The notes: generated from the sequence alone by a model not told the origin. Positions 1,716 through 38,900 are shown, numbered from the stretch's first letter. The stretch is 41,701 nt of DNA from Candidatus Omnitrophota bacterium (GCA_020057345.1 JAGVGA010000019.1:1-41701), one strand, 5' to 3'. Made by a program: numbers and translations.

Positions 1716-1724
1716 TTTTGCCTC

Positions 1725-3899: not shown

Positions 3900-3901
3900 G
3901 A

Positions 3902-5473: not shown

Positions 5474-5477
5474 GGGA

Positions 5478-6725: not shown

Positions 6726-6769
6726 CAGAACAAAAAATTATAATCAAATACTGGGGTGCTAAGGGCCAG

Positions 6770-6814
6770 CTTGGTTTTTCCTAGCCCCTAGCACCTAGAA
6801 CCTAAAACCTGTTT
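6770..6814. repeat. Degenerate 7-bp tandem repeat (CCTAGCC-type) plus shared 14-mer
   Basis: Plus-strand units run CCTAGCC, CCTAGCA, CCTAGAA, CCTAAAA, CCTGTTT (6780-6814), each 7 bp and drifting stepwise. The 14-mer CTTGGTTTTTCCTA at 6770-6783 recurs exactly at 12520-12533, where it leads into another heptamer series. The repeat fills most of the 91-nt spacer between the tandem-domain gene and the GH-A gene. Confidence 0.75.
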
Positions 6815-6816
6815 TT

Positions 6817-7959: not shown

Positions 7960-7987
7960 ACCGCACCTCCTTGATTTGCCTTCTGAA

Positions 7988-10393: not shown

Positions 10394-10403
10394 TTCTTCA
10401 CCA

Positions 10404-10438
10404 ATTGTTAATTGTTCATTCTTCATTTTTCATTCCTA
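10404..10438. repeat. Five degenerate 7-bp tandem units (ATTNNTN)
   Basis: Plus-strand units are ATTGTTA, ATTGTTC, ATTCTTC, ATTTTTC, ATTCCTA with no gaps. The last unit overlaps the permease stop codon (10436-10438), and the series covers the longer alternative start of the next gene. Confidence 0.75.
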
Positions 10439-11377: not shown

Positions 11378-11390
11378 CGGGTGCCTCTCT

Positions 11391-12461: not shown

Positions 12462-12464
12462 TGT

Positions 12465-12557
12465 ATCCGTTTATCGTTAATCGTTGATAGTTAAAACTTT
12501 TTTGGACCTTATTCCAATCCTTGGTTTTTCCTATACCCTATAAACTATTTACTATTG
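12465..12557. repeat. Two series of degenerate 7-bp tandem repeats in one spacer
   Basis: Series 1 on the plus strand: ATCCGTT, TATCGTT, AATCGTT, GATAGTT, AAAACTT (12465-12499). Series 2: CCTATAC, CCTATAA, ACTATTT, ACTATTG (12530-12557), led by the 14-mer at 12520-12533 shared with 6770-6783. Together they occupy most of the 111-nt gap between the binding-protein gene and the first permease. Confidence 0.75.
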
Positions 12558-12572
12558 ACCCCCCTTAACTCG

Positions 12573-13886: not shown

Positions 13887-13913
13887 GAAAATATCCCTCC
13901 GTTTATTTTTAAG

Positions 13914-16361
13914 CTATCCCATCACCACGCGGACCTTGTGCGTCTTGCCGTCGCCGATAGGCTTGACCAGATTGCCGTCTTGAAGCCGGCCGTCCACGTA
14001 AACTTCCCTGACCCCTTTTTCAACGCCGTTGGGGTTTTCGATATCTATCTCAAAAACATCGCCCCTGAAAGGGCGGCGCACCGAACACTTCTTCCACTTC
14101 GAAGGGATACACGGATCGATGCGCAGGCCTTCGTAATCCCGGCGCGCGCCCAGTACCCATTCAGTCCCAGCCATAAAAGCCCAACCCGAGGCCCCGGTGA
14201 TCCAGGTGAACTGACCTTCGCCGTAGCGGTAAGGATTTTCCGGGCCGACGAGATATTCGGCGTATACATAGGGCTCGGATTTATAGAGATCATAATTCTT
14301 CTGTTTGTTCGGCATGATCTTTGTCATCGCCTCATACGCCTTGTTGCCGCGACCGACCATGCAGTAAGCCATGACCAGGAAATGCGCGGCATGACAAAAG
14401 ACCGCCGCATTCTCCTTCGTGCCTTCGGAAAACATGCTGATACGGCCAAGCTCCGGGCGAAACTTAGTGAACGCCGGATAGAACATGGCGATGCCATGGG
14501 TGCCGTCGAGATACTTATCGCAGGAGCGCAGCACTTTCTGCAGGCGCTCGCCTTCGGCCATACCGCCGAGGATCGCCCACGCCTGGCTCATGATAAAAAT
14601 CTTCCCCTCGTCATAGGCTTTAACGCCATACGGTACGCCGTCATCCGTGAACCCGCGCACATACCAGTCGCCATCCCAGCAGATCTCATTGACCCGCTCG
14701 GCCATAGTCTTGGCTTTATTTAAAAACTCCTGAGCCTTGTCTTTCTCAGCCATAAGCTCGGCCAACTCCGCAAAATACTTCATAGAGCGGACCAGCGCCT
14801 GCGCGAGCCAGACGCTTTCGCCCTTATGCCTTTTCCCGGCGGCGTCGATCGCGTCGTTCCAATCCGCGTGGCCTATTTTCGGCAGGCCGCGCTCGCCCAC
14901 ATCGTTAAAACAAAAATTCAGATTCTTCTCCAAATGCTCAAAAAGCGTGCCTTCGCCGTCCTGAGACGGCCCCCCTTTGTACAAAGGGTCCGTTTCCCAA
15001 CCGCCGAGCCACTTGTCTTTTAAATAAGGGACGTATTCCGAAAGGATGGATTTGTCGCCCGTTTCCTGGATATACGAGCGCACCGTCGAGGTCAGCCAGA
15101 TCTGATGATCTTTGTTCGGCCTGTGCGTCGCAGGACCCAAGGTATCTGACCATCCGGGCGCAGATGTTCCGTCGCGGCGGATGAGCGCGGCGATCTGGAA
15201 AATCCTTTTTTTGGTAATGTCATGATTGATGGAGCAGATCGCTTCCGAATCCTGGCACGAATCCCTGTACCCGCGGCCGCCCGAACCTTCGTGGTAAAAA
15301 GACGGAGAGCGCGACCAGAGATTGCAGATATAAACCTGGTACTTGACCCAGATGTTCATCATGGCGTCAAACTCGCTGTCCGGTGTCTTGATCGAAATAT
15401 TTCCCGTGATGCGGCCCTTCCATAACTTCTTGGTCTCATCGAGCGCCTTTTTGGCAATGGCCAAATCTCTGTACTTCTCGACGAGCTTGGCCGCATTCGC
15501 CTGGCCTTCGGTCTCGCCTAAGACCACAACGAACTCTTTGGTCTGTTTGGGCGCAAGCTTAATCACGTGCTTGAAGCAAGCGATCCCGTCCTCACCGGAA
15601 CACAGCGGAGAGTTTTTGAATGTTCCTTCTAAAATGCTTTCCGGTTTTTCTTCCGTGTTGTAGCGCCCTAAAAATTCGGCCTTTCTCGTGGCGTAACCCT
15701 TCACTTCCAGGCTCGTGCCGAAAAACGCGTAATTCTTAAACTCCCGGATGTTCATCCCCTGCCAGAACGCCGTCTTCCAGCCATAAATAAGGCGGTGTGT
15801 CTCGTCATACCACATCCTGTTGTAAAGGTTCATGATGTTGCGGTAACGCAGCTCCTCCTGGTAGTCTCCGACGAGCCACTCGACATACGGATAGAGCTCC
15901 AGCTTCTTCTCTTTATTCGATTCATTGGTCAAAGTAACGAGCCAAATCTCGCAGTCGTCATCCACCGGGACAAAATAGGTAATGCTGGACCCAACGGAAT
16001 TGTATTTGGAGAAAATAGTCGTGTAACCTAATCCGTGTCGGCACTCAAAAGAGTCGAGCTTGACGCGCAAAGGCTGATAGGTGAGCGACCAGACTTTAGC
16101 CTTGCCTGCGGATTTGCGGCTGCCTGATTTTTCCTCGCGCGCATAGATGTAGCGGCCGGGCCGGTCAAGGTTTTTATAATCAGGCGCCCATCTCAAGATC
16201 CTGTCTGTGCGGCAATCCCTGAAAAAACTATAGCCGCCGGCACACTGAGAGATGACGGCGCAGTATTTTTCGTTAGTCAGGTAATTGATCCAGGGAGTCG
16301 GCGTAACCGGGTCCGTCACGATAAACTCTAATCCGTCAGATGAAAAATATCCGTACTTCAT
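13914..16361 (-). CDS. GH94 phosphorylase (cellobiose/chitobiose/cellodextrin phosphorylase family)
   Basis: The 815-residue length matches cellobiose and chitobiose phosphorylases. The N-terminal beta-sandwich starts MKYGYFSSDGLEFIV and contains GGYSFFRDCRTDRILRW, the typical GH94 opening. The (alpha/alpha)6 barrel has GGRGYRDSCQD, GHADWNDAID (about residues 497-506, with the DWND motif holding the general-acid region), and later FSEGTKENAAVFCHAAHF and WITGASGWAFMAGTEWVLG. GH94 enzymes use phosphate to split beta-glucosidic disaccharides or oligosaccharides into a sugar 1-phosphate and the remainder. There is no signal peptide, so it acts on sugar imported by the adjacent ABC system. It is the first gene of the operon. 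The substrate (beta-1,4, beta-1,3 or beta-1,2 gluco-oligosaccharide) cannot be decided from sequence alone. Confidence 0.93.
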   Translation of the reverse strand: MKYGYFSSDGLEFIVTDPVTPTPWINYLTNEKYCAVISQCAGGYSFFRDCRTDRILRWAPDYKNLDRPGRYIYAREEKSGSRKSAGKAKVWSLTYQPLRVKLDSFECRHGLGYTTIFSKYNSVGSSITYFVPVDDDCEIWLVTLTNESNKEKKLELYPYVEWLVGDYQEELRYRNIMNLYNRMWYDETHRLIYGWKTAFWQGMNIREFKNYAFFGTSLEVKGYATRKAEFLGRYNTEEKPESILEGTFKNSPLCSGEDGIACFKHVIKLAPKQTKEFVVVLGETEGQANAAKLVEKYRDLAIAKKALDETKKLWKGRITGNISIKTPDSEFDAMMNIWVKYQVYICNLWSRSPSFYHEGSGGRGYRDSCQDSEAICSINHDITKKRIFQIAALIRRDGTSAPGWSDTLGPATHRPNKDHQIWLTSTVRSYIQETGDKSILSEYVPYLKDKWLGGWETDPLYKGGPSQDGEGTLFEHLEKNLNFCFNDVGERGLPKIGHADWNDAIDAAGKRHKGESVWLAQALVRSMKYFAELAELMAEKDKAQEFLNKAKTMAERVNEICWDGDWYVRGFTDDGVPYGVKAYDEGKIFIMSQAWAILGGMAEGERLQKVLRSCDKYLDGTHGIAMFYPAFTKFRPELGRISMFSEGTKENAAVFCHAAHFLVMAYCMVGRGNKAYEAMTKIMPNKQKNYDLYKSEPYVYAEYLVGPENPYRYGEGQFTWITGASGWAFMAGTEWVLGARRDYEGLRIDPCIPSKWKKCSVRRPFRGDVFEIDIENPNGVEKGVREVYVDGRLQDGNLVKPIGDGKTHKVRVVMG

Positions 16362-17305: not shown

Positions 17306-17971
17306 TTATATCCCACTTGTTGTTTTCGGTACAACACCAAAACCCCCTGTTTCAACAGCCGGCTGAGCCAGGACAGGGCCCGGGCTGACCAAGGGGCTAA
17401 AGGCGGATTGTAAAGCCGCCAATATCTCGTCGCTCTGGTCCGACGGCGAATAGGCCGTGCCGCCCTGACCGCGCGAACGCGTGTAGTTCAGCGCGGCGAC
17501 AGAAACGCCGTTCTGCCTCAGTCCATCGACGATCCTTCCGGAAACAGCGCTGATCCCGCGCTCCGACGGCCGATGGCGGTAATGATCTTGGCACAAAGAA
17601 ACGGACAAATAATCAAAATCGATGGAAATAATTGCCGGCCCTGTCTTCCTTCTGATCAAAGCCGGATCGTAAACAACCCTGAGATTATCGATATCGCGCA
17701 ATGTCCTCACCCAGTCGTTGTACCACTTGAACTGCGGGTCGGTGGCTGACCACACCGGCCGTACGAGCGTGATCGGGCCGATCAGGCCTCTCTTGTGCGC
17801 AACGGTGATCCAGTTCCCTTCGTGGATCTCGGCTTCAGGTGTATCCCACGCCTCGGCGTCGTTATGAAAATCAAACACGATAAGCGGCAGGCCCTTAACA
17901 ATCGTTTTGTCGGTAAGCAATAGCTGAAGCCAGCTGATCATCTCCTGGTGATTTTCCGCAACAGAGATTGC
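17306..17971 (-). other. Giant protein, C-terminal segment: UPF0489-like domain
   Basis: After the SSPC delimiter, about 220 residues contain PLIVFDFHNDAEAW near the start and IISIDFDYLSVS near the end. This pairing (D-x-H-x-D, then xDxDYxS) is that of the UPF0489/C5orf22 family, which has an arginase/deacetylase-like metal fold. The function of that family is not established. The extreme C-terminus (SPLVSPGPVLAQPAVETGG) is a Pro/Ser-rich tail. The stop TAA is 22 nt before the PilZ-like gene. Confidence 0.5.
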
Positions 17972-20900
17972 GCACGGCGAACTGGCGCCAGGTTTGGCCA
18001 TCTTCTTGACAATTATGGCTAAGGCCTTGTTCTCTTGGACATCCCCTGATGCCATCAGCTTCCTGGCCTCGGAGGGCAGGCGCCAGGTCCAATTCTTTCT
18101 ATTTTTTGTCCCAGGCACGTTGTAGCGGTGTTCCGGCCCGGATAAACCGAATACCGTCTGGATACTCACGCACATGAGCAGATTGCCCGACCTCAGCATG
18201 ACATTCAAAAGCGAATCCAAGTCCTTGAGTGAAGCCTCGTCATCCCCTTGACCATACATACGGAATAAATCCTGTGTTTGCTTCCTGTCACCCGGCGATA
18301 ATTCTTCCACGCGATCAACAAAAGTCGCAGGTGTATCGTGGGTCTCTGATGTGATCAACATGTGAGGCAGTTGCGATGCCTCTGCCTCTCTCCAGCCTAT
18401 GACGTTATAAAGATAAAGATTGGGAAGCTCTTGAGCGAGGCGGTCCAGCATCGCGCGCACTTCTACGGGCCTTATGCCCAGATCTTCTCCGATCAACAAC
18501 ATCCCGGATTTGTATGCTTCTTGCGCAAGGGCCGTAATTATCCCCTCACCCAACTTTGCCATGGCATCAGCATCCGCGGGTTCAAACTTTCCTTTTGTCG
18601 CCGGCTGATCCCAGGGAATGACCCATTCACCGCAAAATCCCAACAGGTGATCGACGCGCATGCCGTCAAAGTACTTGGCTGCATGCCGTATACGGCTCAG
18701 CCAAAATGTCAGCACTTCTTCATATTTATCGCCCCATCCGTAAGGCAGGGAGCTCCAATTTTGGCCCTCCTTGCTGAACTGATCCGGCGGCGCGCCGTTG
18801 GTTTTATCAAATTCAAACAGTTCCTGATGGCTCCACACATCAGCGCTGTTGATGGCAGGATACATCGGCAGATCGCCCAACAAAAACACTCCTTTGGCAC
18901 GGGCAGTGGCGCGGATATCAAGGCGCTGCACATGGCTTAACCACTGAAGATATTTAAAGGATGCTATCTCCTCACTCAGTTGCTCGGCATACTTTCTTAG
19001 CGCTTCAGGGTCCCTCCGGCTTATCTCTTGCGGCCAATGCCTCCAGTCCTCTGTGTTGAAATAATCCAACAAGGCGTGGAACAACGCGTAATCATCCAGC
19101 CACCACGCCTCCTTTTCTGTGAATTGAGCCAATTCTTCGGATGCCTCAGGAACATTGCTCCGATCAAGATAGCGCAAGGCATTTTGAGCAAAAAGACTGA
19201 TACTCAAGTAGGGGCACGGATCCCTATATGTTTGTGTTAAGGGCAGGTCCATCCAAAAAGTAGCGCCGAGAATATCTTTGATAAAACTTATGAACGGTTT
19301 TGCCGCTGTGTTATCTCCGAGCGCGGCAAGAGGAGCGAGCACGCCAAAATGCTTTGATTCCCACCAATTTCCTTTAGCCTCCTCAACAGGTGAGCTGGAC
19401 GCCCGGGGCGGGTGTTTCTCTTTCAGCTGTCGCGTGAAATCCTCAACGAGCGCATCGATATCCTGGCTTCCGAACATCCCCTGGACGCGGGCCGCCTGCT
19501 CTCTGAGCGACTCCTGGACCTTCGCCTTAAAAAGAAGGTTCGTGACGTCGATGACCTTGGCATTGATCTCCTCTAAGCCCCATAGCCTGTGATAGAGCAG
19601 CCGATGGTTGCCGGCAAGGCAATAGTCCATGCCTGCGACCCTGATAACAACAATGGGATTGACGATCAAAAAGTTCTTCTTGTCTTTGTTCAGAAAATGC
19701 AGCACGCGGTCACAAGTGATGCCCGGCTGGGTCACGCGGATATCGCTTACCCGCAGGCGCATCTCTTTTAAACGATAAAGATACTCAAGGTCACCGGCCT
19801 GAAAATAGGGATAGGCGTATGCCTTCATCAAGCCCTGAATATCCAGACGCATGCCCTCCGTATCGAACCAATCCTGCTTGCGCTTTTCAATTTCTCTTGA
19901 GGCGAACCTGAATACCCGGCTGTCCACTTTCACGACGAGGCTGTTGTCCGCGTCTTTAGAAACGCTCACCACCGGCGAGCTGGAGCGATCAGTCATCTCA
20001 AGAGCGGCCGCATTTGGTTCAAACTCAAGGCCTGTAAATAATACATCCGCCAAAAATGTTTCCCCGTTAGACCTCAGGAAGGTAACCGTAATTTCATTGA
20101 TCCCCGCCAATGCCGGCGTGGCGAGAAGCGGGATCCGGATCTCATTTTCTTGGCCGTGCGTGTCCTTGAAACTGACAAATGCCTCATTGGAAATGAACCC
20201 AACTCCGACGGGACTAGCTTCTTTTCTATTAAAACCAACGACGGCTTTCTTGATCGGCTGATGAGACCGGTAGCGAATCCTCAGTGTCCCGTTGGACAAG
20301 TTCACGCGTTGCGCCTGAGGAATTGTCACGATGATTCCACCAGGGCCGATATTACCTGCTTTCAAATGATATGTGCCATCATTAGATTTCAAAAGATCAG
20401 CCTTTTCACCTGGTTGATAGAATGATTCTATATCTCTACTTAATCCCTTGGAGCCAAGATACCGCATCATGTCCTGAGGCCCTTTCCCAACAAAACCTAA
20501 AATGAGAGATAACGTATGCGCGGACGTCTGGAATCTAATAGCCTCTTTTTGGGCAATATTGTAGCCCTCCCAGGGCCCATGTTCCGTCAACAGGGTTTTT
20601 ATGACCGGCCAGTTTGCCTCCAAAAACCTCTCTGTCTCCCCGGGCGCAACCATATAAGCAAGGCCGAGAGCATAAAGAGACGCAACATTTGTAATTCGAG
20701 GATCTGTGGCTACGGCAATCTCAGGGATGCCGACTTTACCCGTATACTGTATTCCTTCACCGGTATAGCACTCTGAGAGAATATCGGGAAGGCGGTGACG
20801 AGAAGCATAATCAAGCTCAATCTCCACAAAATTTTTAAGGATTAACCTCCAGCCCGGATTATATAACTCCGGCATATACAAAGCCGGCCAAAGCATCTGA

Positions 20901-23900
20901 AACGCTGATCCATCGTAAGGCGCCACCGTCGAAACATCTCTTCCGTCTATCGGATACGATTTTATCTTGAAGGCCAAATTTTTAATGGCGCTCTGAGGCA
21001 ACCTATAGCGCACAACCACGAATATCGCAGGGCCGCGAAATTCATTCCCTAAATAATCACTATGCGCCACATGCCATTGCCCTTGATCAGGCCAACCCAA
21101 CCATTTTTCTGTCGTCCAATTATAACCAAACCTAAACATTCCTGCCGAGTCATCATACAAAAATCTGTAACCTTCGCTCTGTTTCTCAAGAAAGGCTTCC
21201 ATTTTTTCCGTGAGTTCTTTTATTTTACGGCTATCTTCAATTTTCGGCAAAAGCGCCCCAATAGCGACGCCCAAGGATGCGGAAAGATTCGCGTTATCCC
21301 CAAACACCACAAGGACGTGTCGCTCATCAAGAATTTTCATGATGGCAGCTTTGTCGCCCTCATACGGCTTCAAGGCCCCTCCAAAATCCTCTCCATAGCC
21401 CTTTATTCTATTAATTCCGGCTTCCTGACTAATACTCTGCGCCGTAATCCAGCCCTTGGTTATCAAAGCCTGCCAGATTGATTCTCCCTTCTTTTTACCA
21501 AAACCGCCATATTGCTCCTCTTTTGTCAACTTCAGCTTTTGCGCCTCTGAACCCAATGGACCCTTTCTTTCGCCGTTTTCCAAGCCCATAAAATTCACCA
21601 ACAATCCTTTATGGCTGAGTTCCGGGTTACCCTGGTCCTGACGCAGACTATTGATCACAACGATCAGTTTCTCCAAGGCCTGTTCTCCGGTCATATAGGG
21701 ATTATCCACATAGCCGGCAACGATGTTGGCCAAAACCTGCACCTCGAACCCTATAGCTGTCAGCTGGGTATAGGTTCTAAAATCCAGCCCCTTGTCTGGC
21801 TCGCGGTTCCAGCCTTCGACAAAATAGCCGGATATAGGCTCTGCCATATTGTTTCCCGGGGCTAGATATCTCATCGCGTTATCCAGTAACGCGCGCGCAT
21901 ATTTATGAGTTGGTGACAGGCTGGCCTGCGTTCTTCCCACCGGCGAGCTGGACGCGCCTTTTCCCCGGTCGCCCGGTCCTTGTCCGCCTGTCAGCCCCTG
22001 TTTCTCAAGCTCGGGGGTATAGAATCTGGACACCTCTCTTTTAAACACGCCCTTGGCCCTGGATAGAATCTTTCCCTCGAGCGACTCGACAAAATCAACG
22101 CTCTCCGCCAGATATCTCTTGATCTTTTTAATGTCTGATTTGTAGCGCGGCGTCTGGAGATTGTGAAGCCTGTCGGCGATCTTGATGACCCTGACATAGC
22201 TTTTTTTGCATCCTGCGATGCGGAGAAGAAAATCCTTATCCTCTTCGCCTTCTTTTTTCGTCAATACGCCGACGCCGTCGAATATCGCTTTGATCACGAC
22301 ATCGCTGATCCCTGTCTTGGCGAACTCTTTGCGCATGATATCAAGGATGTCTCCCGGCCCTTCGTAATCTTCAACCGTATCGTGGAGAAGGGCGATCGCC
22401 AGCAGGATCGCATCGGCATAGTGTGCCAGGTTCTCTCTGTCCGCCTTGATATTAAATCTGCGAAGGACCCTGAATTGTTCGATCAAAATAGAAGCAACCG
22501 ACAACAAGTGTATGAGATAGGGCTCACCGTTGGCTCTCTGCTGATCTCCATGAACGCGCTTGGCGAGCATCCAGGCGACATCGACGATCTGCCAATGCTT
22601 TTCCAGCTTTTTGTCCCCTATAATCGCAATCTCTTTTAGGCGCCTGAACTCCCTTTCCAGCCACTCTTCGTCGATCTTCGACGCATCTTTTTTGTAAACC
22701 AGCGCGTTCGCTTTCAAGAGCTTCTCCCCAAAGAATGCGCTTGCAGGGAGAGCCTTCCCGATCCGGTCGATGATCCTGGAGGCGTCAAACCACTTTTCTG
22801 CAGTCGTTAATATGGCGCCGCCTTCGCGCGTATTATTGACGATGTTGCCGGAAATGATGTTGGTCCTCAACGGGCCCGTTTCTTTTTCGCGCAATTCCAC
22901 CTTGTATTCGTTAAAATTATAGAGGACGAAATGAAAATGCGGCTCACTGTCCTTTATCCTGAATTTGACCAAAGAGACATGTTTTGTCGCTATCCTTTCC
23001 CGTATATATTTTTTGACGCGCAGCCGTCCGTCAGCGGTGAATTCGAAATATTTCTTGATCCTCATCTTATCGTTTTGGCCAAGCGTCCGGTCATTCCTCA
23101 CAAACCACTCGAGACCGTAAAATCCTCTCTTACCCTGCAAAAGCGCAAGCAGATTGACGTGCGTAACTAAGATCTCAATCTTCCCTGGGCTCACGCCCGC
23201 CTCCATAAACAGGATAAGCGCCTGGAATGCCTCGAAAAACTTTGCCCCATCTTTATAAAAAGAAACTCCTCCGGCGCTGTGGCCCCTGACCGTTGTGCGC
23301 AAAGAGACATCCTTGAGCATGGGAATGATCCTTTGTTTCAGATGCGCATAGACCCCCTGCCCTTCGTCAAAGAAATACGGATATTGCTCCTGCAGCGGAG
23401 CGATCTCCGAGAACATGACAGGCCACATCCTCAACTTAAACCAACTGGAAAATCTTTTGCTCTTGAGCGAATCGACGAGGGAGGCGATCTCCATCATCAA
23501 GCCATGGTGCGAAGCGCTGTCTATCTGTTCATCAAACAAAATATCCAAAAGCGCGCTCAACAGGCGAGCGTCGATGATCTTCTTAAGCCGGTCCAGCGTC
23601 TCGCGCGCCTCCTCGACGCTGTTATTTCGCAAGCTCATCCGGAGTTTTTCAAAAACCTCCTGCTGTTGATCGTTGCCTATGGGCGAACTCGAAGAGCGCC
23701 TGAAACGGTCCCTGGTCCTTTTGATCTCTCTGACCTGTTCCACAGGGGCATTGCTCAGCGCAATGATAACATCGAACCTTTCGCCTCTGAGCTGGCCTAT
23801 TTTACGGTCTATCAATCCTTCTGTTTCGGAATGCTTCAAAACAAAATTCCAAGGAAGAAATCTTTTCCGGCGCTTAGCCTCCTCCTGCATAGTCAGGCGT

Positions 23901-26900
23901 ATCGTATCTTTGGAAAAAAGAAATTCCTTGAGCCTGGGCAAGGGGAGTTTTATCGTTAAGCTATTTCTCCCGTTGAGCCCTGCACGGGAAATAAACTGCG
24001 GCCTGTCTTGCCGGGCCTGAATAAATATTTTTATAGCCTCAGCCATGTAACCGCCGTCGGCTTCTCCGAAATAAACGATATTCCTTATGCCGGAGAATTC
24101 CGGATAATCGACCAGCACCTCTAAGTGCGGCTCGCTTTCTCTAAGATTGATCCCTATGACCTGCTGATAAAGCCTGGCCAGGGTTAAGTGGAATTTAAAC
24201 TCGAAAACCGTATTATCGCTGATCGCATCAAATTGCTTGACGACTTCCCCATCGCCGTCATAAACTTTCCGATTGATCGACCGCAGGCGGCCCAGGTTGA
24301 TCTGCCTTAAGATCACGTCTCTTTCAACGATCACCTCGTGAAGGCCGGATATTTCTCCGGCCAGACCCAGGACGACGTGATGGTTTCTCCTGCCCTTTTG
24401 GAGCGCGCGCGCCATTTCTAATACGGCGCGGTGAACAAAGGAGTGAACTTGATCGCTGCCTTCCCGATCGTATAGGAACAAACCATCGACTTTCGCCAGG
24501 AACCTCTTGGATGAAAAATCCCTGTTTTCAAACCCGCTGTCAATCGCCCTTAAGGCCTTGGCGACCTCGCGATCGTTGATTGGTGAACTGGATGCGCCTT
24601 CATTTTCCAGGCGGTATGTCCCGAATCCCAGCTCGCGCAGATCCGCGAATGCCAGGCGCATCAGCGTCACGCCGCGGCCGATCTCCGGAGAGCTCTCGGC
24701 CTTTTTTGCAAGGCGCGCGGTCAGGCCTTCCACCGTATTCCACGGCCCCAGAGGATTACCAGCCCTCCTTAACCCAAATCTGTTATAGATCATCATGTAA
24801 GGCATGGAGGATTTCCCGTTCTTGAAAGTAGGATGGAACTTCGGATTCACGCCAAGCAGTTCAGAAAATTCGTGCCGGCGCGCGTATTCAACAGCGGAGA
24901 CCAATAGCGCTTCAGACGGCATAAGCCCTACTTTTGCAAAAAAATCGGCAACCTCGCCGTTAGTCGCGCCGCGCACACCGCCAAGCCTGTGATTACGTAA
25001 TGTGCTCGCCTGGCCATCTACGCCGATCCTGAAAAATACGCCGCTCAAAGGATTGGCGGACATCCTTTGTTCGCCCAACAGGATCTCAACCCCAAACGTG
25101 CTCTCTCCCAAACCAAACCGCAGGCCCAAAAAGTAAGGCGTCTCATTGATACAGCTTCTTAAGAAAGTGCGATTTGCCATAAAATCATTCGAGTAAGAAC
25201 GGATCACTCTATCCGCGTATCCGGTCATCCAGTCAATCTTACTGTCGTCTGCTGAATCTTGCGGAACCAAATAAGCGAACTTTTGCTTTAAGTGCGGGTG
25301 AGTTCGGTAAGAAACGATATAGAATTTTAAAAATCTGTCCAAGGCCTCCGGCGACAACTGAGACATCCGCACATATTTATTAAGCCAATCGAACATAAAC
25401 CTCACGGCCTGACTATCAAGCCCCCAGACAGTTGATAGTAAAATGGTCCAGTAATGAATATGCCTCTTGCCTTCGTATCTGCCGCCTCTCTGATAAGAAA
25501 AAATCAGAAAAGTGAATATCTTGTGCATGAGCGCCGGCTCAAGCAGACGGCCAGGATCTTTTGTCTGAGCCCAATGACCGATCTTTTCCCGGTCTGCAGC
25601 AGAAAAAATCGACTCTTCTAAGCTGCCAAGCACTTGCCCGATCATGGCATCAACAGGAGACGAAACCTGAGCGCCTTCTGAAACATAAGCCGCCTTGAGC
25701 AGCTGCGCCTTGTCTTCTTCGCTCAAGTTGTGTCCGACAGCCAATACCTCCAAAAGCACATCCGTCTCGCCGCGGACCAGAGAAAAATAATTCTTGCGGC
25801 CTTGGAACCTGAAGTGCTCGATCAAAAGCGGGATGCCCAATATCCTTTTTTCTTCCGGAGAAAACGCCGACCAGCCCAACTCATGCGTTTGCAGCTTCTT
25901 TATTTTTGAGACGGAATATTTCTTACTGCTCTTTAGCGGCTTGAATTCTCGGGCTTCTTTGATACCGACGAGTTCGACAACCGCTTCAAAAGCCGGATTC
26001 GGAATGCGCTCGGACTTCTTTTCCGGATTGTCGATATTCAAAGAAATAAAAGCCGCTTGATACAATCTCGTTCCCCAGAGGCTCGCCTCGGCAGACGTCT
26101 TCTCGATCTTCTGCGATCTTAAAAAATTGTCAAAAGCCCGGGCAAAAAGCTCTTCTTCGGATAATTGCGAAGAACAAAGGTAAGCGGCGATGCATAAATT
26201 CCTGAAATCCTCCATAAAAACCGCCAAGGTCAATGCATCCAGGACCTTCTCCCTGGCCTCTTCCAGGACATTGCGCGCTGATTCGCTGTTCCCGTCTTTG
26301 ATCAGCTTGCCGCTAAATCCTAAAAGGCCTTTTAAGGACTTGAATTCAGGCTCGCGGAAACAGATCGTCAACTTCTCGGCACGCAGAAAACCCTGGACCT
26401 TACCGTACGCGGCCCGGAGGTCCTTCTTATCCAGCGCCTGCAAGATCTTATCCAGTCGCCCCAGCATCTCCCGGTTGCGCGCAAAAGTGATCTCGCGCAT
26501 CTGGCTCATTCGTCCTTCCCGGATCTTCTCGATGATGCGGCGCACCGCCTGGCCGCGGATCGTGACAAATCGCAAAGCCACGCCCAGAATGCTGCGGCTG
26601 GCGCGGAACTCTCCGCGGCTATTCAAGGCCATGGCGAGATCCAGAGAAAGCCGGATGATATCCTTGATGCCGAGAACAGCCCGGTCCAGCTTTTCGCGGA
26701 TCTGCGCCAATTCAGCCTGCATCCGGCTGACTTCTTCGGCGAGGATCTCCGGCTGATCACCGGACGACGCTGTCTTCGCGATCGCCTCATCCATATTTTT
26801 ATTGATATCGCTTAAAGTCTTATAAACAGACCTCAGCCAATTAAGTTCGCGGCCTTCGGTCCTGATCTGGTCGTCCATGGAACGGAACGCCTCCCAGAAA

Positions 26901-29900
26901 AGATCGTGATGCACGGGCTTATAAACACGGTAAACGACCGATGCGCCTTCGCTGAGCGCATAGCGGACATTCAACCCCCTGACCACCCACAGCCGCTGCG
27001 TCTTGGCATCAAAACCAACGCGCTGCTGCGGACTCTCCCCGCGGCGCATCATGAGGCGGGCGAGATCCTCCGCAGCCGCATTCAGAGCTCCGATGCCGGC
27101 GGCGATCTTCTCCTCTTCCCTGGAAGCCTCTATCAATTTCAAATTCAGGCGGCACGTCCCTTCAAAAAAGTATTGGGCCCTGGGCTCATCCTTGGAAAAT
27201 ATTTCATTATTTTGTATAGGCGATGAGCCGGCCTCTTCGGCATCTTCCTCGTCGGAAGGTTCTTTTGATTTTGACTTTCTGGGAGGTTTATCGAATTCGT
27301 TTCTAAGCTCGGTGCCGATATCGCTGAGTCTTCTTGAGCCCTGAGGAACCTGCGGAACATATAGGACAATGCCCTGTTGGGAAAAATATTTGTTCGCTCT
27401 CGCTAAAAGCAAGCCGTAAATGCGCGCCAGCGAATCCCTCTCGGCGGCGAGAAGATAGTACCTTGCGGAAAATTCTTCGGGCAGGAAAACTGCCGCGCCG
27501 AAGGGCCGGCCTGAAACAAAAAGCGAATCCAATGTTGTATTGACGTCTCCGACATATTTTTTCTCCCGCTTCTCGAGATTTCTCGCAGAATTTCTGAAAG
27601 CGATGATCTCTTCTATCAAGGCCTTGAATTCCGGGCTAACCTTCGAGGCTTCTTTCGCCGCAGACTTGGCGTGGCCGATCTTCAACGTCTCTAAAGTCCT
27701 GACGATCTGATGTGTCATCGGTTTTCCGGCCACAGCCGCATCCGCAGAAGCCGACGAGACGGATAATAGAGCAGCGACGGCCATATTAGCCCAGAACATT
27801 TTACCCGGGTTGACTACCGGCGAGCTGGAGCTTTCTTCTAAAGAGGCCGAAGGAGACGAAGCCTGCCTCTCGTATATCAATATCGCCGGATAATGGACGG
27901 AATGAGCCAGGCTGGCGATCTTGCTGTCTGCCGCTGCCTCTACTGTCAGGAAGGCCTTGGCATCTACCACATAGGGATAGGATGCCCTGGCCTCCCCCTT
28001 AATGCGATTGAACTTCTCCGTAACGAACCTGTCGAGGGCCCCGGAATGAGCCTTCACGGATTCTTTTGCCGCTTCTGTTTCCACCTCGATGATAAGATCG
28101 ATGTCCGAGCCGGGCGTGAAATCACCGCTGCTCATGCCGCCATTGATCCAGGCCTTCCTGATCCCGTGACCGAAGGACATGGAGGCGAGCATCTTGACAA
28201 TGCCTTCCGCAACGATCCAGCGCAGGTGATAGTGCGCGCGAAGGTCGTCTTGCCTGAACATCCTGACCAGGGACTCCTCTCCAGAAATCCCCAGCCGCGC
28301 GACCGTCTTTGTCACGGCTGCCTTCCATTCCGCCTCAACGCCTGCCACCGGCGAAGAAGAGCTGAATTGCTTGTTGATCTTCAATTTATCGTTCTCAGCG
28401 TCAAAATAAGACAACAGCAGTCTGCCGACCCAGCTATCTTTAAAATCATACCCCTTGGGAAGATGCCCGCTTAAAACCGTATCCTGCGCAAGAACGACGA
28501 CTTTGCCTGCGGGAGACACTGTCTCCGCTTTCTGCCCCAATATTCTTTCGACCGCGTTTTTATAGAGAGCGCCTTTATGGATAGCGTTACGGATAAAATC
28601 GCTGACAGCGTGACTGCGCTCTGCGGGCGCGGCGACCTTATCAAAAGCGTAGATCCCGCCCGGAGATCCGTTGACTTCGATCACATAGGGCAGCACGTCT
28701 TCGCCCAGAATGATGTCTATGCCCAAATGGTCGTCCTCAAAATAAGGAGATACATTCCCTAGCGGTGTTTCGACAAAAGAAGGCGGGAATTTTTTCGTAT
28801 AATCCTCGACAGCGTGATGCGCCTTCACAGCCTCTTCTTCTATCCGCCGGATGATTTCTTTTATCCTGGCCCCATATCCAAGGTCTTGCAAAACGACTTT
28901 TAATTGATCCGGCTCTGCGTCGATGCTCAGATTGACCGCACCCGAGCCTATGCGAACGACATGGCCTGAGACCTTTATTTCGCCTTGCGGCACCCTGGAC
29001 GTAAATACGCGCACATTCCAATCAAGCTCTTTGCCCGCCCTCACGAGCTTTCTGTGAAGGATGAACTTCTGGACGATGACATCAACGCTATCCATGAGCG
29101 CATTCAATAGGCCGTTTGCCTGTAGATCATCTCCCGGAGAAACAAACATGATGCCCCTTCCGGAAATACCGAAACGGGGCTTGACGACGGTCTTGCCCGC
29201 TATGTCAAAAAATGTCCGCAGCTGATCAAGGGAGGTCTCTTCTTGCCGCGATATAAAGAGGCTGTTGGGTATCCTAACCCCCGCATCTTTTAAAATCTCG
29301 TCGACAACCATCTTGTCGCGGATGATCGGCAATAAGTTATTCAAAGTAGGGATCTTTAAAGAGCGCAGGTTCTGGGCTGACCAAACGCCCGGGCCGCCGA
29401 CGTAATGCAGGATGATCGGCTCTTTGAAACCGGCCAGGACGAACCTGCCGTCGTCATCTAAGTAGAAGGCTGCTCTTGCGGTCACCACCTTAATTCCGTA
29501 AGGCAGTTCCATTATCTGCGCCCAGTCAGGGTGTACGAGAAATAGCTTTCCGCCTTTATATTTCTGGGCTCCGGCGAGGATAGACATGCGGTTGTCCGTG
29601 CGTATCCCCTTGCTGATAAGCGCAAGATGCACGCCCTTGGGCGCATCCACAGGGCCCTCGGGGATAAACGGCAGAGGAAAATCGTAGGATAATAGATTTA
29701 AAATGATGCGCAGACGGAAACCCTCGGTCGCTTCGTTTGTCATAAAGGAAAACATCGCCTGATCAGGATTCATGACTTGGTCAATAATGCCCTTGACGGT
29801 CTTTTCCGTCTCTTTATTCCAATCAGCCAACGCGCCTCTTATCTTTTCTTTTCCCGCATCGGATAGATCTGCCGCCTCCAAGATCAAGAGCAACTTTTCC

Positions 29901-32900
29901 ATGATCGTGTCGGAGAAAGACAGCAAGGAGCGCATCTTCTTCCATAGTTTGGCGTCTTTTCTGTCTAAGCTCGCGATCAACGCCCGAATTGCCCCCATCC
30001 TCCGCGAAGTCTCTATTTCCAAAACCAGAAAAAGGTCTTCCCCGACGTCTTTAAAAAGCCCTTCCTTTCCGGAGACACGGACGATGTTATGCAGAATGAC
30101 CTCCGGATACAAAGAAAAATCAACCGCATTGGCAAGGAAGTTTATTGACGAACCCTCTATCGGCGAGCTGACGGATGGGGCCGCATTCTTTAAGGCCCTG
30201 TGAACAGCTTTTTGCAGTCCTTCGGGCAGGTCGGTAAGGCGCTCTTTATCCATACCTTTTCTTACCGCAACAGCAAAATTCTTGACGGCTTCCTCAGTAT
30301 TCCCCAATAATCCATAAGCGACGCCCATGCCGAAATAGCTTTGGACAAAGTCCGGCTCAAGTGCTATGGCCTGCAGGAAATACCCGATGGCATCCACAGG
30401 CCTGTCCAATTGCAGGAAAATACTTCCCGTGTTATTAAGGGCCAAATGCGAAGCCGGATCTACAGCTGCGGCTTTATTTAAATATTCAAGCGCCTTGTCC
30501 ATATCGCCCATATCGTGATGGATGCTGCTCAAATTGATAAACGCCTCGGCATAATCACCGTCGAGTTTCGCGGCTTGAGAATAATATCTCACGGCTTTGT
30601 CCAGATCCCCCCTGGAAAGATAAGCGGTGGCGAAATTGAAGAGGACAGTGGCTAACAAAGCCTGATAATGACCGAAGTGAAAATACCGATACAGCTCTCT
30701 GACCTTCGGCTGAAAGGCCCGGCATTTAAGACTGAAGAAATCATCCTGCTTTTCTTTTCTTAAGTGCCAATAAGAACCAGAGCGGACGAAATACTCCCGC
30801 AAAGAAAATGCGGAGGTTATGCCGGGAGAAGAAAGCTCGATCACTATGACTATCTCCTGCTTCTGGGACCCGAGCGTGACATGGTCCTTAGCCAATAGGA
30901 CATCCGCCTCGACCCCGAGCATCCGAAGAAGCAGATAACCGACGAGGCTTTCTAAGACACAGCCTTCGCCGATGAAAAGATGAAGCTGCTCCACATCTTT
31001 ACCGCGGATATGACGCGGGTCCTGGCGAACCCTTTGAGCTAAATTAGCGAAATCTTCATCCAAGGGCGGAATAAGCATAGAGCCCATCTTGAGAAAATCT
31101 TCTTCTTTCCTGAGCGTCGCCTTACGCACCGGCTCCTCCAATACTTCAGCGACTTTTTCTAAATAAACAAAAGGATGCTGACCGGGTACGTTTCTGACAT
31201 CTTCCAGGCGGTGCCTGAGGGCTTGCGCATCAATGCCTCTGGCCCGGACAAAAGAACCAAAGCTTTCTTCAATGTACGGGATGCTCCCTTGAGGATAATA
31301 GCCGCCGAGCACATCGCAGAAACCCGCAGGCAGAGCGTCGCCAATCGGCGAGCTGGAAAGACGAACAGCCTGGCCCTTACCCTCTGTCCATAAATCATAG
31401 GCGAGCTTGAAGCGCTCGTGCCAACGCTTGGCCGCAGTTTGCCTGAGCTCCAGGGCTTCAACGAGGAGCTTCTCTTTTTCCGCGCCCTCTCCTGCAGCGG
31501 CAAGGGCTTCTTTTTCATCCGCGGCCTGGTCCAGATTCACCGCATCGCGATCCATGGCAAAGTTGCGGCCGATGGTGCCGGCGATCCGGACGTTTCCTAA
31601 ACCCGCCGCCTTAATCTTTTCCTCAAGCTGCCTGATATAAAAAATACCGTTCTGAGTCGGGATGCGCGTCATCACGTCGCGGCCGTCAAGAATAGGCCAG
31701 AGATTGACCCGGACATTTTCCGGCAAGCCGAGGCGTTTCGCCATCTCGATCAACCCCAGGAAGTAGCGGTTATCCGCATGGATGCCGCCTTCGGAACAAA
31801 GCCCCATCACGTGAATGTTGCGGCCTTCCTGAACCGCGCGCTGGAACACTGCGCGCAAAATTGAATTATCAAAAAATCTTCCATCCCCTATCTGATCGAT
31901 AATCTGCTTATAAAGCGTTTCGATGATCATGCCGACGCCGATGGTGCGGTGGCCGTTATCCGAATCTCCCATCTGGTAATCAGGCAAACCGACCGCATCG
32001 CCATGCGCTTTTAAAGTCGTGAAAGGATATCTTGCGATAAGGTCCAGATACACCGGCGGCTGCGCAAGTTCGATCCCGTTCCATGCCTTGGCCTCGGGGT
32101 TATTAAACGGATTGATACCCCACCCGTCGCGGATCAAGAGGACCACCGGGCCTTGAATATCTTGCGGGACGTAATCTGCAAGCAAGCTCTCAGCCATCTC
32201 TACGGGCTTCGGCACACCTAAGATATCAAGGAGCGTCGGCGCGATATTGGAAAGCCCCATGCCTTTTTTGAGCCGCACCGCCTCTTTTTCCCCTAAACCG
32301 GCGATGACAAAAGGCACGGGATTGGTCGTGTGCTGGTCAAACGGGATAACGCCGTACTTGTCTGTCAAAGGCATTCCTTTATCATCAAGGACCACGACCT
32401 GCTCGATGTTGCCGTGGTCCGCAGTCTCGATGTAGACGCCGCCCTGAGCCAGGACCGCGTCCTTGATCCTGCCGGCGGCTTCGTCTCCGGCGAGGACCGC
32501 CAGGCGCGCGCGCTCCTGGTCGACCTTGATATTGTGGCCCTGGATGTCTACGGCCAAATTGACGACGATGAGCTTCTTCCGGCTGCGCGCTCTTATCTCC
32601 CCTAAGAACGCGAGCACGTTGTCCGCGATTTCTTTTGACTTCATCTCCGGCTTTTTGTCTTTGTCCGCCACGCCTTCGGACGGAACGATCGAAAGCTTGA
32701 TGCCACGGCCGGTGTAATCCAGTTTTCTCTGGCCGGCGAAGAAATAGCTGATATGTTTGCCTTTGTCCGATTCGCCGAAATACCCCTGGATCACGCCCGC
32801 GCTCTCTAAAACCTCGATCACGCTCATGTAGGATGGCAGGCTGAACTTAGACTCGAAAACCGCCCGGATGCCGCGGCTTTCAAAATATTTTTTGTCATAT

Positions 32901-35900
32901 GGGACAAAGGGAACATAGATAAGGCCGAGGTCTTTAACGTCGAACCTATTGCCGCTCTGGTTGAATTGTGAGTCGGTGAAAGCCATCATCGCGCCGAAAG
33001 AGCGGTCCGCGCGGTGATTGACCCAGATGACGATATCCCCCTGTTTTAACGTAGCGACGGGCCTGCTCATCCCCCTGATCCGGTAATTATAATAATCCGC
33101 ATTGTTTTTATGGGCGCCCAGGAAATCCACCTTTATGCCAGGCTTAACCCTCTTGGCTTCGAGATTTGAGAAAAAGTCCTGCATCGCGCCGTTGTCTCTG
33201 TGCACCATGGCTAAGACCCTGTTTACGCCGCGATAGTCTAAATGCCTTAACGAAAGACGCATGATCTCTGTGGCCAGGCCCAAGCGCCTGGATTCCTTCA
33301 GGACAGCCATATAGTCGATCTCGCTGTGGTCAAAAAAACAATATCCGAGCATACGCCGGGCGGCCTCTGCAAAAACCAGATATCTATCCCGGCCTTCGCT
33401 TGAAAAGAAGTGGTATCTGAGTACAGCGTCATAAGCCTCGTGCCAGTTGCCTTCCGGGCCTTGAACACTGCGGTTGATCCCGGCGACCGCCTCATAGAAA
33501 ATCTTCCTTTGCCTCTCGCTCTTTAAGGAACCCAGATGAACGATATCCACATCAACGCCGGCCAAGGGCGAACTGGTCGAATTATTTTCTTCGATATTAT
33601 TGGCGGGCTTTTGCGTCAAAAGATCGCGGTACACCGTTATGAGCGCGTTCTCGCCGGAATCGATATCACCCTCCCTGCCTCCTTTGATCACGCGGATGAT
33701 CCTGGCGCCGTTTTTGACATGCATGTTCGCAGCGGTGCAGGCAAGACTGCGCTTGGTGATCCTCACATACTCCTCAACAGGGAAGTTGGAGTGCTCGATG
33801 AACTGAGTGTAATCGCTCCAGGTCAATTGAGCCGGATTGACTTCGCGAGAAGCCAAAAATTCCCTGAATGTCATCTTGGGGCCTACCTTATAATCGAGGT
33901 AATTGATATCATCGGCCCCCTGCTTGACAGGCCTGAAGGTCGTAAGTAAATAAGCCTCAGGCGTCAAAATATCCTTGAACTGGCCGTAACCGTTCATGGG
34001 CGAATAGGTTCCCCGGGTCATCCCCTCGATTAAAGGCGTGGTGGAAATAAGCAAGGCGGTGGAGATCTTGGGGCCGAAACCTTTGAGACGGTAATCTTTC
34101 CTGACAGCAACGGCATAATGCAGCCAGACATTATCTTTCGCCCGGTTGCGCATCGTCTGCATGATCTTTAAAAGAGAGCCGGGGATCTCTTCGATGGACC
34201 CAGCAAACAAAGACACACACCAGAGCGAGGCGATGATCGCGGACGCTTCATTCCTTGCGACGAGATGGCCGCCCTTGTTATTGGCCAACATCTCCCCGGC
34301 CTGCGGCAAAGTTATGTCAAAATTACCTTGCCACGCTTCATTGTGGATAGGAACGATCGTCTCCAGCTCGGGTTCTTCTAAAGGCGCGATCCTAATCGTC
34401 AAAGCCTCTTCCTTGCTGTCCAGCGCCACTTCTTTGTCGATCACAGGCAAAGATCCAGAGGCATCATCGATGGGTGAGCTGGAGCCGGTTTCGCGGGATC
34501 CTTTGGAAGCCGCGCGTGCCGCAGGGAACATAGGCTTGATAAACGCTTCGCCTTCCGATTTTTCTGAGCGCTCCACCATGGCAAGAAAGCCTTCAACGTC
34601 AAAATAATGAATATTACCGAGATACCGGCGGCCGATCTTCTCCCATAAGAACCTGCGGATCTCTTGAAGCCTTTCCTGAGAATCGATGAACAAAAACGAT
34701 TTGCCCTTTGCCAGATATTTATGCAGCTTCATCTCGTCAAATTCCGTGGAGCGAATCCTGAAAAACTCCAGCTTTGCGGCTTTGGGCTTTCTCAAATTCT
34801 GATTTTGGTACAGCAGGACTTCTTCGGCGACCCTATAGAGATTTTCTTTCAAAATCCTTAACCCTGTCCCGTTGAGGCCTTTTTCCTGGCTCGATGAATA
34901 AAAAAGGCTCAAGCGGACTTTGTGGGCGATATTCCTGAGCTTCCTGAAATTCTTAAAACTGTGCTCCATGCCTGTAAGCGCCCACATGCTGTAACCAAAT
35001 CCTATAAAGAGAGGCAGTATGGTAAGAGGCCTCGGAATCCTGGCAAAAGACACATCCGGATAACGGCGGCTATAAACAAAAGCCACGGCGATGCGGCTGA
35101 TCCCTGTCATGTGAATGACTAAAACACCCACTACGGCGCCAAGCACAGGGTACCCCGCCAACCCGCCGACAAGGAAAGGCACAAGGCCGGCGTATTTGGC
35201 CATGCCAAATGCAGTCTCGATAAAGATAGAGATCTTTTTCACTTCGCCGTAGGCGTGCTGCTGTCGTTCCGGGAGTCTTTTTAACTGAAAATCGATAAAT
35301 TTAAAAAGGCTTTCTTTCTGCGGAACGCCGTTATTTTCAACAGGCGAAGAAGCTATCTCATCGGACAGAACAGACCCGAGCTCTTCACGGCCAAAAACCC
35401 TCAAAGCCTCTTTTCCTGCGTCAAGGCCTTGTCCCTGATTGATAGAGGCGTTTTCAGCGACATATTTAATGACCCTGCCGAGCTTCCTGGAACCCAACTT
35501 TTTTAAACTCTTGATGATCAAGGCGCGGCTCGCCTCATCGATGCGCCAAGGTAAAGCGCTTTCCTTCACCGCGCGGTAAGCCACAATCAGATTGTAGATA
35601 AGCTCGTAATTCCCAAGAAGGCCATTGTCCACAGCGAGCCTCAGGACATGATTTTTAATGTCTTCCTCGGATCGTCTGTCAATCGCATAAAATTCAAAGC
35701 CCTCTCTTGTCAAAACAACAAGATTCCATTTGAGGAAAATATTGGGCCTCAGATCAGAGAGCGCATTTTCTGCATCTGCTTCCGGATGCTTGGCAGCGCG
35801 GTTAACCATGCCGTAAAGCGACACGGTTGATTCCGGATTCACATAAAGAGTCTTTTCAACGCCGTTTTCAAGGATAGGTATCGTCATCCAGAATTCCGCA

Positions 35901-38900
35901 GGATTGCCGTTGGAGGCCGCATAGATATTGACCTCATAATAGAACTGGCCGCATCTGGGAAGGCCCAAAAAGAGATAGACGATGTCTGACCCGCCAATAT
36001 AGATCCTCTTGTATTCTTGTTTTTTGGATTTTAGCTCGGCGGACAAGCGCTCGTAGACCTCTTTGTAGAAAGGAACACACGGAACACCCGCTGCCTCGGC
36101 ATCCTGCCAGCGGATTATCTTGAGCGGCTCGCGGTAAAGGCCGACATACCGCGCTACCACCAGCTGCAGCGAAGGCCGCAACGACGTAAACCGCTCCCGT
36201 TCCAAGAGCCGAGAGACCGGAGACGACGAAGCGCCGTAATTCCACGATTTTTTTACGGCCTCAATGACCATAGGGACGGCTTGAGAAAAATTAAAGTTCA
36301 TAACCGCTGCGGCCAGGTCCTTTTCAGATGCTACGCGGCCTCCAAATTCCTGAATAAACATCTCATAACCGTCCAAGAGGATCTCAGAGACCTCAATATC
36401 GCTCAGCCCGTTTACAAAACCGGCGAGCACGATCACATGCAGCCACTCGCTGAGCACCTTACCTATATCATGGTCAAGATGCTGGGGCCGCACAGGCGTC
36501 AGATGTTCAAGATCAAGGATATTGCCGCTTAAGCGGATCGCGGACAAGAGCGACGTATGCACATAGCCGCCTTTCAAGAAACGCGCCAGGGTCAAGATGC
36601 TGAAAAGGCCGGATTTTCTGATCTTCAGGTAAGTTATTGCAGGAGATTTCTCATGCAGATAAGCAAAATCTTCCTTTAAGGCAATGAAGGCGATGGCCCA
36701 TTTCTCTTGGGAAAGCTTGATATCGGCGGATAAACCGGGCAGATCGCCTTCGAACACATAAGCCTCGCCCGGCCTGACAGACTGCAAAAGAAGCGGGCCG
36801 TTAGGCTGTATTTTCAAAGCCTCAGTCATGAGCCGGGCTTCTAACTCTAAGTCTTCCTTGGTCTGGCCCTCTGCGGCAAATTTGACGGCGATGACTTTAT
36901 TCTGATCCAGCTCGATCACGGCGATGCGGCCGAACCATCGGACTTCGCGGCCATGAAAATCAGATAAAGGATAATGCAGCTTCACCGGCGAGCTGGAGGC
37001 CTCTTTAACGCTAGTCGCAACCTCTTCACTTTTCTTCGTTGACCAGATACGCACGATCTTCTGCGTGCCGGAAACAGGCACCAGGCCGCGGACAAACGAA
37101 CCGACGATCTCCTCGGCGGCGCCGGACTTCACCTCAGCCTCGACTCGGTCGATCTGAAGGAACGCTTTATCTTGTGAGCGTATCTCGAAATCTCTGGCAA
37201 AAAATGCCACCAGTGAATGCCCACGCCCCGAAGTCTTCTGCGTATGATCGACGGCATCGCCGTTCTGAACATCCTCGGTTTGGCCTAAAGCAAAAAACTT
37301 CTCGATGTCATAGCCGGATCCGTTATCGAGAGCGATCGCCTCAAATACAAGGCCGGCCTTCTCGTCCTTAACGCGCCTGAGGAGAAAGATCCCAAGGCCC
37401 TTGCTGACGTGCTTGCGGATATCGCCGATGAGCTCTGTTAAGCTCAGCTCCACCTTGAATATGTCCTCTTCGTCAAAGTCGTTCTTAAAGCCGAATCTCT
37501 GCGCAAAGAAGATATTGCCCTCTTCGTCCGAACCCATGAAATCAATGAGCGCGCCTTCGGCGTTCTTAACGCCCCACTCTTCTTTGAGATCTTCAGAAGC
37601 CTCCCTGCCGAAAACAGGGAAAACAAAGAATCCATATTCCTTCTCAAGGATCTTTTGGGCCTCAACGAACTGCTTCCTGTCAAGGCGCCTTAAAGCCTCC
37701 CAAAGAAGCTCGACATGCAACTTGGCCGCCAATTCCCGGACGACCTCAGCGGTCTTTCCGCGATAGGTGGGCTTCAGGATATTTAAGTAAGCCAGCGCCT
37801 CCTGCGCCGAGATCTTGCTTCTCCTGAATTCCTCAACAATCTCCCGGACGATCTCATTAGCTTCTTTGAAGCTGATGTCTTGTGTTATGCCGTAGAGACC
37901 ATCAAGCAATGCTCGAATGAAGATGCGTTGCTGATGCCTTAAGGGTTCTACCGGCGAAGAGGCCTGACCGGGCCTGGGCACAGACTTAAGCAATTTGACA
38001 TCCGCATCGACGACGTTCTCAAGTCCGCGGAATTTTGACTCGAGGGCCGCGTTCGTGAACGGCTCCGTGTCCTTCGTGTCTTCGATCTGGAACCTGAGCA
38101 CAATCAACCCAGCTTCATTCTCCTGTTCCATCTTCTCGATATTCAAGCTGTACTGATGCAGGATATGGGTGACCTCATACCAGAGCCCTTCCCTGTCGAG
38201 GGCGCGAATCACGACCGCCCGCCTGATCCTTGTCGTCAAATAATTAGACAATTCCGAAGGTTCGATAAGACCTGCACCTAAGGCCGCATAGAGCTCGTAG
38301 ATATCCTCAAGATGTTTGGAAGATATAAAATAAATAAGCTTCTTATTGAATAATTCCGTCTTTTCGGCCTTTGCCAGCGGAGCAACGATCTCCCTCCCCT
38401 TTTTCTCCAATGCGCTCATCGCATTCTCACGCAGCTCCCTGATAAGAAGCTTGGCGCGGAGCGTTTTTGCGCTCCTTTCGATTTCGTGGCTCGGGTTGAA
38501 GGCGGCGCCCTTGGCTCTCAAGGCCACTGTGGCGAGCGTCTGCAGATTCGCCGTTTCGCTCAGAGGCTGTTTGGCCATAACAGCCTCTAATCCAACATAA
38601 ACAGAATTAAGACGATTGACCTCGAAGTATGCGGCGAGATCCGCCGGAACAGAGCCAGCAGGAAGCCGAACAACCTGAAGATCCGCCTGTCTAACGGCTT
38701 TTTGTGATACAACTGACCATATCTTCTCTCTTAAAGTTCCGCGGCCGTAGCCTAAATAAATAACAAAGATATCGCCGGCAATAAGGTCATAAAGAAGCCT
38801 GAAATTCTCGGTGAAGTCCGATGAAAAAACGATATTATCCGCGATAAAGTTCTGGCGCACATACGCATCCGGCATCAAAGATTTTATATCCACGGTGAAG

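Follow-up and report, generated by a model that had tools for sequence, protein, structure and literature searches.

A circularly permuted cofactor-independent phosphoglycerate mutase in giant reading frames of Omnitrophota, and a candidate second glycolytic set

The minus strand of a 41,701-nucleotide contig of Candidatus Omnitrophota bacterium (GCA_020057345.1, JAGVGA010000019.1:1-41701; this whole stretch is called the window below) encodes a rearranged form of cofactor-independent phosphoglycerate mutase (iPGM): the two halves of the enzyme have exchanged places. This is a circular permutation and not an assembly error, and it recurs across the phylum. Based on the conservation of the enzyme, its predicted fold and the genes that accompany it in related genomes, it is most likely an active iPGM of permuted topology that belongs to a second, probably exported, set of lower-glycolytic enzymes.

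A permuted mutase in a single open frame

All the iPGM motifs lie in one open frame, in the permuted order given by the original prediction. Those of the canonical C-terminal half come first (first bases on the minus strand: RADR 33013, DIQGH 32548, TADHGN 32425, HTTNPVPF 32332) and are followed by those of the canonical N-terminal half (DGWG 32128, QMGDSDNGH 31975, DGRD 31687, MDRD 31555). The circular permutation proposed on these grounds was borne out by alignment. In a phmmer search against PDB sequences, the top match was the B. stearothermophilus iPGM (1ejj, E 1.8e-64), which aligned as two swapped blocks (query 2-297 with 1ejj 240-505, query 310-517 with 1ejj 4-196), and in Pfam the Metalloenzyme domain (C-part) precedes iPGM_N. 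Together, Pfam, phmmer and the alignment show both halves to be complete, swapped and in one frame, with the old termini joined; the window enzyme does not follow the canonical linear order of phosphatase N-part, transferase domain and phosphatase C-part. Annotation pipelines split or miss such an enzyme: its TIGR01307 match falls into two stretches and scores 281.9 bits, below the cut-off of 330.65.

The permuted iPGM occupies approximately positions 31358-33106, where it follows a GNAT domain in a fusion instead of forming a separate gene. The original prediction had placed it at 31390-33075. An iPGM is indeed found there, within a frame that extends over at least 8131 codons, and comparison with locus L036 places the probable start of the domain a few residues upstream of 33075, near 33106 (DYY). 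A stand-alone gene at 31390-33075 was considered and ruled out, as the segment has neither a stop nor a frame of its own. The predicted bridge between the canonical C-terminus and N-terminus exists, with a length of 14 residues (ESLLADYVPQDIQG) and not roughly 20, and part of it corresponds to the normal C-terminal tail of iPGM. The position of the cut had been put near the inter-domain hinge, which is slightly off: it falls between the RW..ER..AY helix and the D(E/Y)..P segment, within what is normally the inserted domain (the transferase domain). In the permuted topology the phosphatase domain has become the insertion, and the chain would both start and end inside the transferase domain. In comparison with canonical iPGM (TIGR01307/GpmI; 1ejj, 1o98), the window enzyme retains both domains, the 14 catalytic residues and the predicted fold, but differs in its permuted order, in the cut within the transferase domain, in its location in a giant multi-domain open reading frame (ORF) and in a helical insertion of ~38 residues after MDRD, which is also found in genome G344 and, in shorter form, in G355.

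Conservation, predicted fold and recurrence

We take the numbering and roles of the catalytic residues from what is established for the B. stearothermophilus enzyme. All 14 (D12, S62, H123, R153, D154, R185, R261, R264, K336, D403, H407, D444, H445, H462) are present in the window iPGM, in agreement with the earlier view that the main catalytic motifs survive. An alignment of 14 permuted members, at 22-63% identity and with some members as little as 22-29% identical to the window, contains only 27 invariant positions, and these include 11 of the 14 catalytic residues (hypergeometric p about 9e-14). The phosphoglycerate residues of the transferase domain (R153, R261, R264, H123) are invariant in every one of these members.

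AlphaFold2 closes the core of the 574-residue domain with high confidence (mean pLDDT 93.6, pTM 0.92), and the model, along with its structure matches, has the two-domain alkaline-phosphatase-like fold. In Foldseek and VIA-align, iPGM crystal structures rank first (model 1-301 with 1o98 239-510, Z 20.3) and other folds of the alkaline-phosphatase superfamily come next, at Z about 10. These matches span one half only because the aligners are sequential, as expected of a permutant. In structure-based alignments, the window enzyme is about 31-35% identical to B. stearothermophilus iPGM. Judged by its sequence and model, the window iPGM is thus real, folded and probably active; it would interconvert 3-phosphoglycerate and 2-phosphoglycerate as canonical iPGM does, through a phosphorylated serine (31961-31963) and two metal ions.

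Searches of the class and of the phylum found the permuted iPGM in 22 genomes from 13 families, all of them Omnitrophota. Both halves were mapped in the 14 permuted genomes of the class search; the phylum search added eight more, six of them outside the class, which were recognised either by one match running across the junction or by the order in which two matches lie. The cut site is identical in the 14 closely examined members. No permuted iPGM was found outside Omnitrophota among the 79 named loci considered, all of which are canonical; this was not a full survey of other phyla. A draft genome in 96 contigs might raise the suspicion that an assembly rearrangement swapped the halves; however, the same order appears in 21 further genomes with different flanking sequence, which refutes this explanation and leaves it a negligible probability. 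In a phylogenetic tree with long branches, a single permuted clade is not rejected (p-AU 0.625), and the log-likelihood is 7 higher when the permuted members are held together. We suggest that the permutation may have arisen by duplication and trimming, followed by inheritance or transfer within Omnitrophota.

Natural circular permutations are known from other proteins, such as concanavalin A and swaposin, to which the present case is similar in the kind of rearrangement. The original prediction knew of no natural permuted iPGM, and our search of open-licence PMC text likewise found no description of one; as far as these searches reach, a natural circular permutation appears not to have been reported previously for iPGM. 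Such a permutation, phylum-wide and in an enzyme central to glycolysis, would offer a clean natural experiment on the effect of chain topology on a two-domain enzyme whose action depends on domain closure.

A divergent second glycolytic set

The draft genome to which the window belongs comprises 769,570 bases in 96 contigs and is 78% complete. No other iPGM is present in the assembled part of it; instead, there are two loci of the archaeal-type mutase apgM (TIGR00306), one full-length (contig C68, 427 aa, 420 bits) and an apparent second copy split over contigs C72 and C86. The apgM enzyme shares superfamily and reaction with the permuted iPGM, but belongs to a separate family and is encoded by a free-standing full-length ORF in normal order. 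With two such loci, apgM probably takes care of the housekeeping mutase step, and a single-copy housekeeping role for the permuted iPGM is therefore disfavoured. Ordinary phosphoglycerate kinase (PGK), triosephosphate isomerase (TIM), phosphofructokinase (PFK) and glyceraldehyde-3-phosphate dehydrogenase (GAPDH) are also present in this genome.

Most of the 22 genomes searched have ordinary free-standing glycolytic enzymes, and many carry, in addition, divergent copies of enolase, PGK, TIM, PFK and GAPDH, the ORFs that hold them ranging from about 500 to 70,450 codons. Several of these copies are found close to the permuted iPGM. Enolase lies N-terminal of it in giant ORFs of G230 and G198, the former (G230:C2) holding both enzymes in an open frame of 70,450 codons; PFK is fused C-terminal of it in G355; enolase, TIM and PGK are encoded in ORFs upstream of it in G344; and it is adjoined by a row of PGK, enolase and fructose bisphosphatase (FBPase) ORFs in G041 (contig C33, locus L148). 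Elsewhere, a 3609-codon ORF of G342 (L189) begins with a signal-like N-terminus that is followed by GAPDH, permuted PGK, TIM and enolase, and a 2503-codon ORF of G309 combines PFK, GAPDH and PGK. The second-set enolases keep every covered catalytic residue at 23-46% identity to ordinary enolase, the GAPDH copies of G342 and G309 keep the SCTTN motif, and the TIM and PGK copies mostly keep their catalytic residues, with exceptions in which residues have been lost. In G309 and G342, PGK is itself circularly permuted, with a cut at about residue 285. As a side note, AlphaFold2 gave a pLDDT of 71.9 and a pTM of 0.72 for the permuted PGK from a shallow alignment; larger PGK alignments of mixed fragments were misaligned and were dropped.

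An N-terminal hydrophobic segment, signal-like or anchor-like, is present in 18/18 second-set ORFs with a visible start and in 0/9 ordinary copies of these enzymes or their equivalents. Most of these segments resemble Sec signal peptides. Each of the G041 ORFs on contig C33 bears a segment of this kind, that of the permuted iPGM being more anchor-like. We propose that the permuted iPGM would serve as the mutase of a divergent second set (PFK, FBPase, TIM, GAPDH, PGK and enolase), which would be encoded by long to giant ORFs that combine several domains and bear export signals, apart from the ordinary cytoplasmic enzymes. Eukaryotic compartmentalised glycolysis offers a parallel, since it too involves a second or relocated set with targeting sequences and fusions, as in trypanosomatid glycosomes and mitochondrial TPI-GAPDH fusions (PMC3527533). 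The eukaryotic cases concern organelles, whereas Omnitrophota would present a bacterium with apparently Sec-type export and permuted enzymes.

On sequence and model evidence, we consider it probable that the window segment is a working permuted iPGM and a member of such an exported set, but several observations weigh against this. The nucleophile Ser62 is replaced by Thr in 9/14 aligned permuted members, with the other catalytic residues mostly kept, and D154 is Ser in 1/14; some members may therefore have changed chemistry. Ser occupies the nucleophile position in 102/102 canonical iPGM sequences. Export was assessed by hydropathy and inspection rather than by a trained predictor, and because the N-terminus of the window ORF lies off the contig, export of the window protein is suggested by analogy with relatives only. 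The window's own genome, as assembled (78% complete), yielded no enolase at all, nor a second PGK, TIM, PFK or GAPDH above the curated cut-offs. Finally, an ATP/ADP translocase (PF03219) is present in just 1/22 genomes; recovery of exported ATP by this route is thus unsupported, and the benefit of an exported glycolysis is unexplained.

The substitutions at Ser62 and D154, the export-type context, which is unusual for a glycolytic enzyme, and the presence of members with as little as 22-29% identity to the window would also suit an enzyme of the alkaline-phosphatase superfamily, permuted and still with the iPGM fold, that acts outside the cell as a phosphatase or with a different phospho-substrate. 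We regard this as unlikely, since the window enzyme is canonical at all 14 residues, the four phosphoglycerate residues do not vary among the permuted members and the neighbours are adjacent pathway enzymes. It is quite unlikely that the permuted iPGM serves the ordinary cytoplasmic glycolysis of the organism: it is the sole iPGM in the assembled genome, and the N-terminus that could bear an export signal is out of view, but the full-length apgM and its contig-split second copy, together with the hydrophobic segments of relatives with a visible start, argue otherwise. Decayed or scrambled gene fragments devoid of enzyme function would be in keeping with the description of giant ORFs in this phylum as having few annotated domains, with one class poorly conserved (accessible part of PMC10066038), and with the second PGK and TIM copies that lack catalytic residues. 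This explanation is largely refuted, and very improbable, given that conservation is highest at the catalytic residues among sequences of 22-63% identity, that the same permutation is present in 22 genomes, that the frames have no stops and that the predicted fold is confident.

If the permuted iPGM is indeed the mutase of a second set, a broader and more tentative proposal can be made. Omnitrophota may possess a complete second lower glycolysis outside their cytoplasm (in the periplasm, at the surface, or in a host or prey cell), whose divergent and partly permuted enzymes would be carried on giant proteins punctuated by SSP[V/I/L] motifs and perhaps cut into separate enzymes. We believe this possibility to be somewhat less probable than not, and offer the permuted iPGM as a lead to the larger theme of an apparently exported second glycolytic set in uncultured, possibly predatory bacteria.

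Giant frames and their punctuation

The frame that contains the permuted iPGM is open on the minus strand from 41701 to 17306, that is, over at least 8131 codons (at least 24.4 kb), and its start lies off the contig. At this size it falls among the giant ORFs of Omnitrophota (> 20 kb; Nat Microbiol 2023, PMC10066038), which it resembles in phylum and length. The accessible part of that report treats these ORFs as poorly understood, with roles in adhesion and polysaccharide processes and few annotated domains, and presents their roles as an open question; it makes no mention of glycolytic domains, permutation or SSP[V/I/L] punctuation.

SSP[V/I/L] motifs occur 19 times in the window ORF against 0.29 expected from shuffles, and are absent from 5366 residues of neighbouring ORFs. 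They bracket enzymes elsewhere too. In G008, of the same order, a canonical iPGM has SSPV 11 residues before it and SSPL 8 residues after it, and in G362 PGK is bracketed by the shorter form SPV. As these motifs bracket enzymes in the window, G008 and G362, we conclude that they mark module boundaries, where they may act as cleavage sites or as mere linkers; it is possible that the window ORF encodes a bacterial polyprotein. In open-licence PMC text, our literature search did not turn up the SSSPV motif in a setting of this kind. The positions of these and other features are given in Table 1.

Table 1. Positions of features in the window, and of the permuted PGK in two relatives
Feature	Position	Strand	Remarks
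Giant ORF	17306..41701	-	5' end past contig edge; ~20 modules between SSP[V/I/L] motifs
GNAT and permuted iPGM module	31358..33574	-	739 aa, from SSPL to just ahead of SSSPI
SSPL boundary motif	33563..33574	-	upstream of GNAT-iPGM module
GNAT acetyltransferase domain	33170..33442	-	Pfam PF00583, E 5.2e-6, over gathering score
Permuted iPGM, part 1	32192..33106	-	canonical C-terminal half (1ejj about 230-505)
R261; R264; K336	33011-33013; 33002-33004; 32762-32764	-	part 1
D403; H407	32546-32548; 32534-32536	-	part 1
D444/H445; H462	32414-32419; 32330-32332	-	part 1
Bridge	32150..32191	-	ESLLADYVPQDIQG, canonical C-terminus to canonical N-terminus
Permuted iPGM, part 2	31358..32149	-	canonical N-terminal half (1ejj 4 to about 205)
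D12; S62; H123	32126-32128; 31961-31963; 31778-31780	-	part 2; S62 is the nucleophile
R153/D154; R185	31676-31681; 31547-31549	-	part 2
Helical insertion	31430..31543	-	~38 residues, after MDRD and before KRWHERFKLAYDL
SSSPI boundary motif	31343..31357	-	downstream of GNAT-iPGM module
4-alpha-glucanotransferase (GH77) domain	18068..19147	-	later module of giant ORF
Permuted PGK, G309	L188, aa 1753-2167		14/14 catalytic residues
Permuted PGK, G342	L189, aa 1204-1614		14/14 catalytic residues

The modules of the giant ORF are mutually unrelated and include HD_4, RelA_SpoT-like, GNAT, TPR, ATP-grasp, nucleotidyltransferase-like and GH77 domains. Past the giant ORF, at 501-16361 on the same strand of the window, lies a cluster of sugar-use genes, which encode a GH94 phosphorylase, an ABC solute-binding protein, two permeases, GH2-like ORFs, a GH116 enzyme and a ROK regulator.

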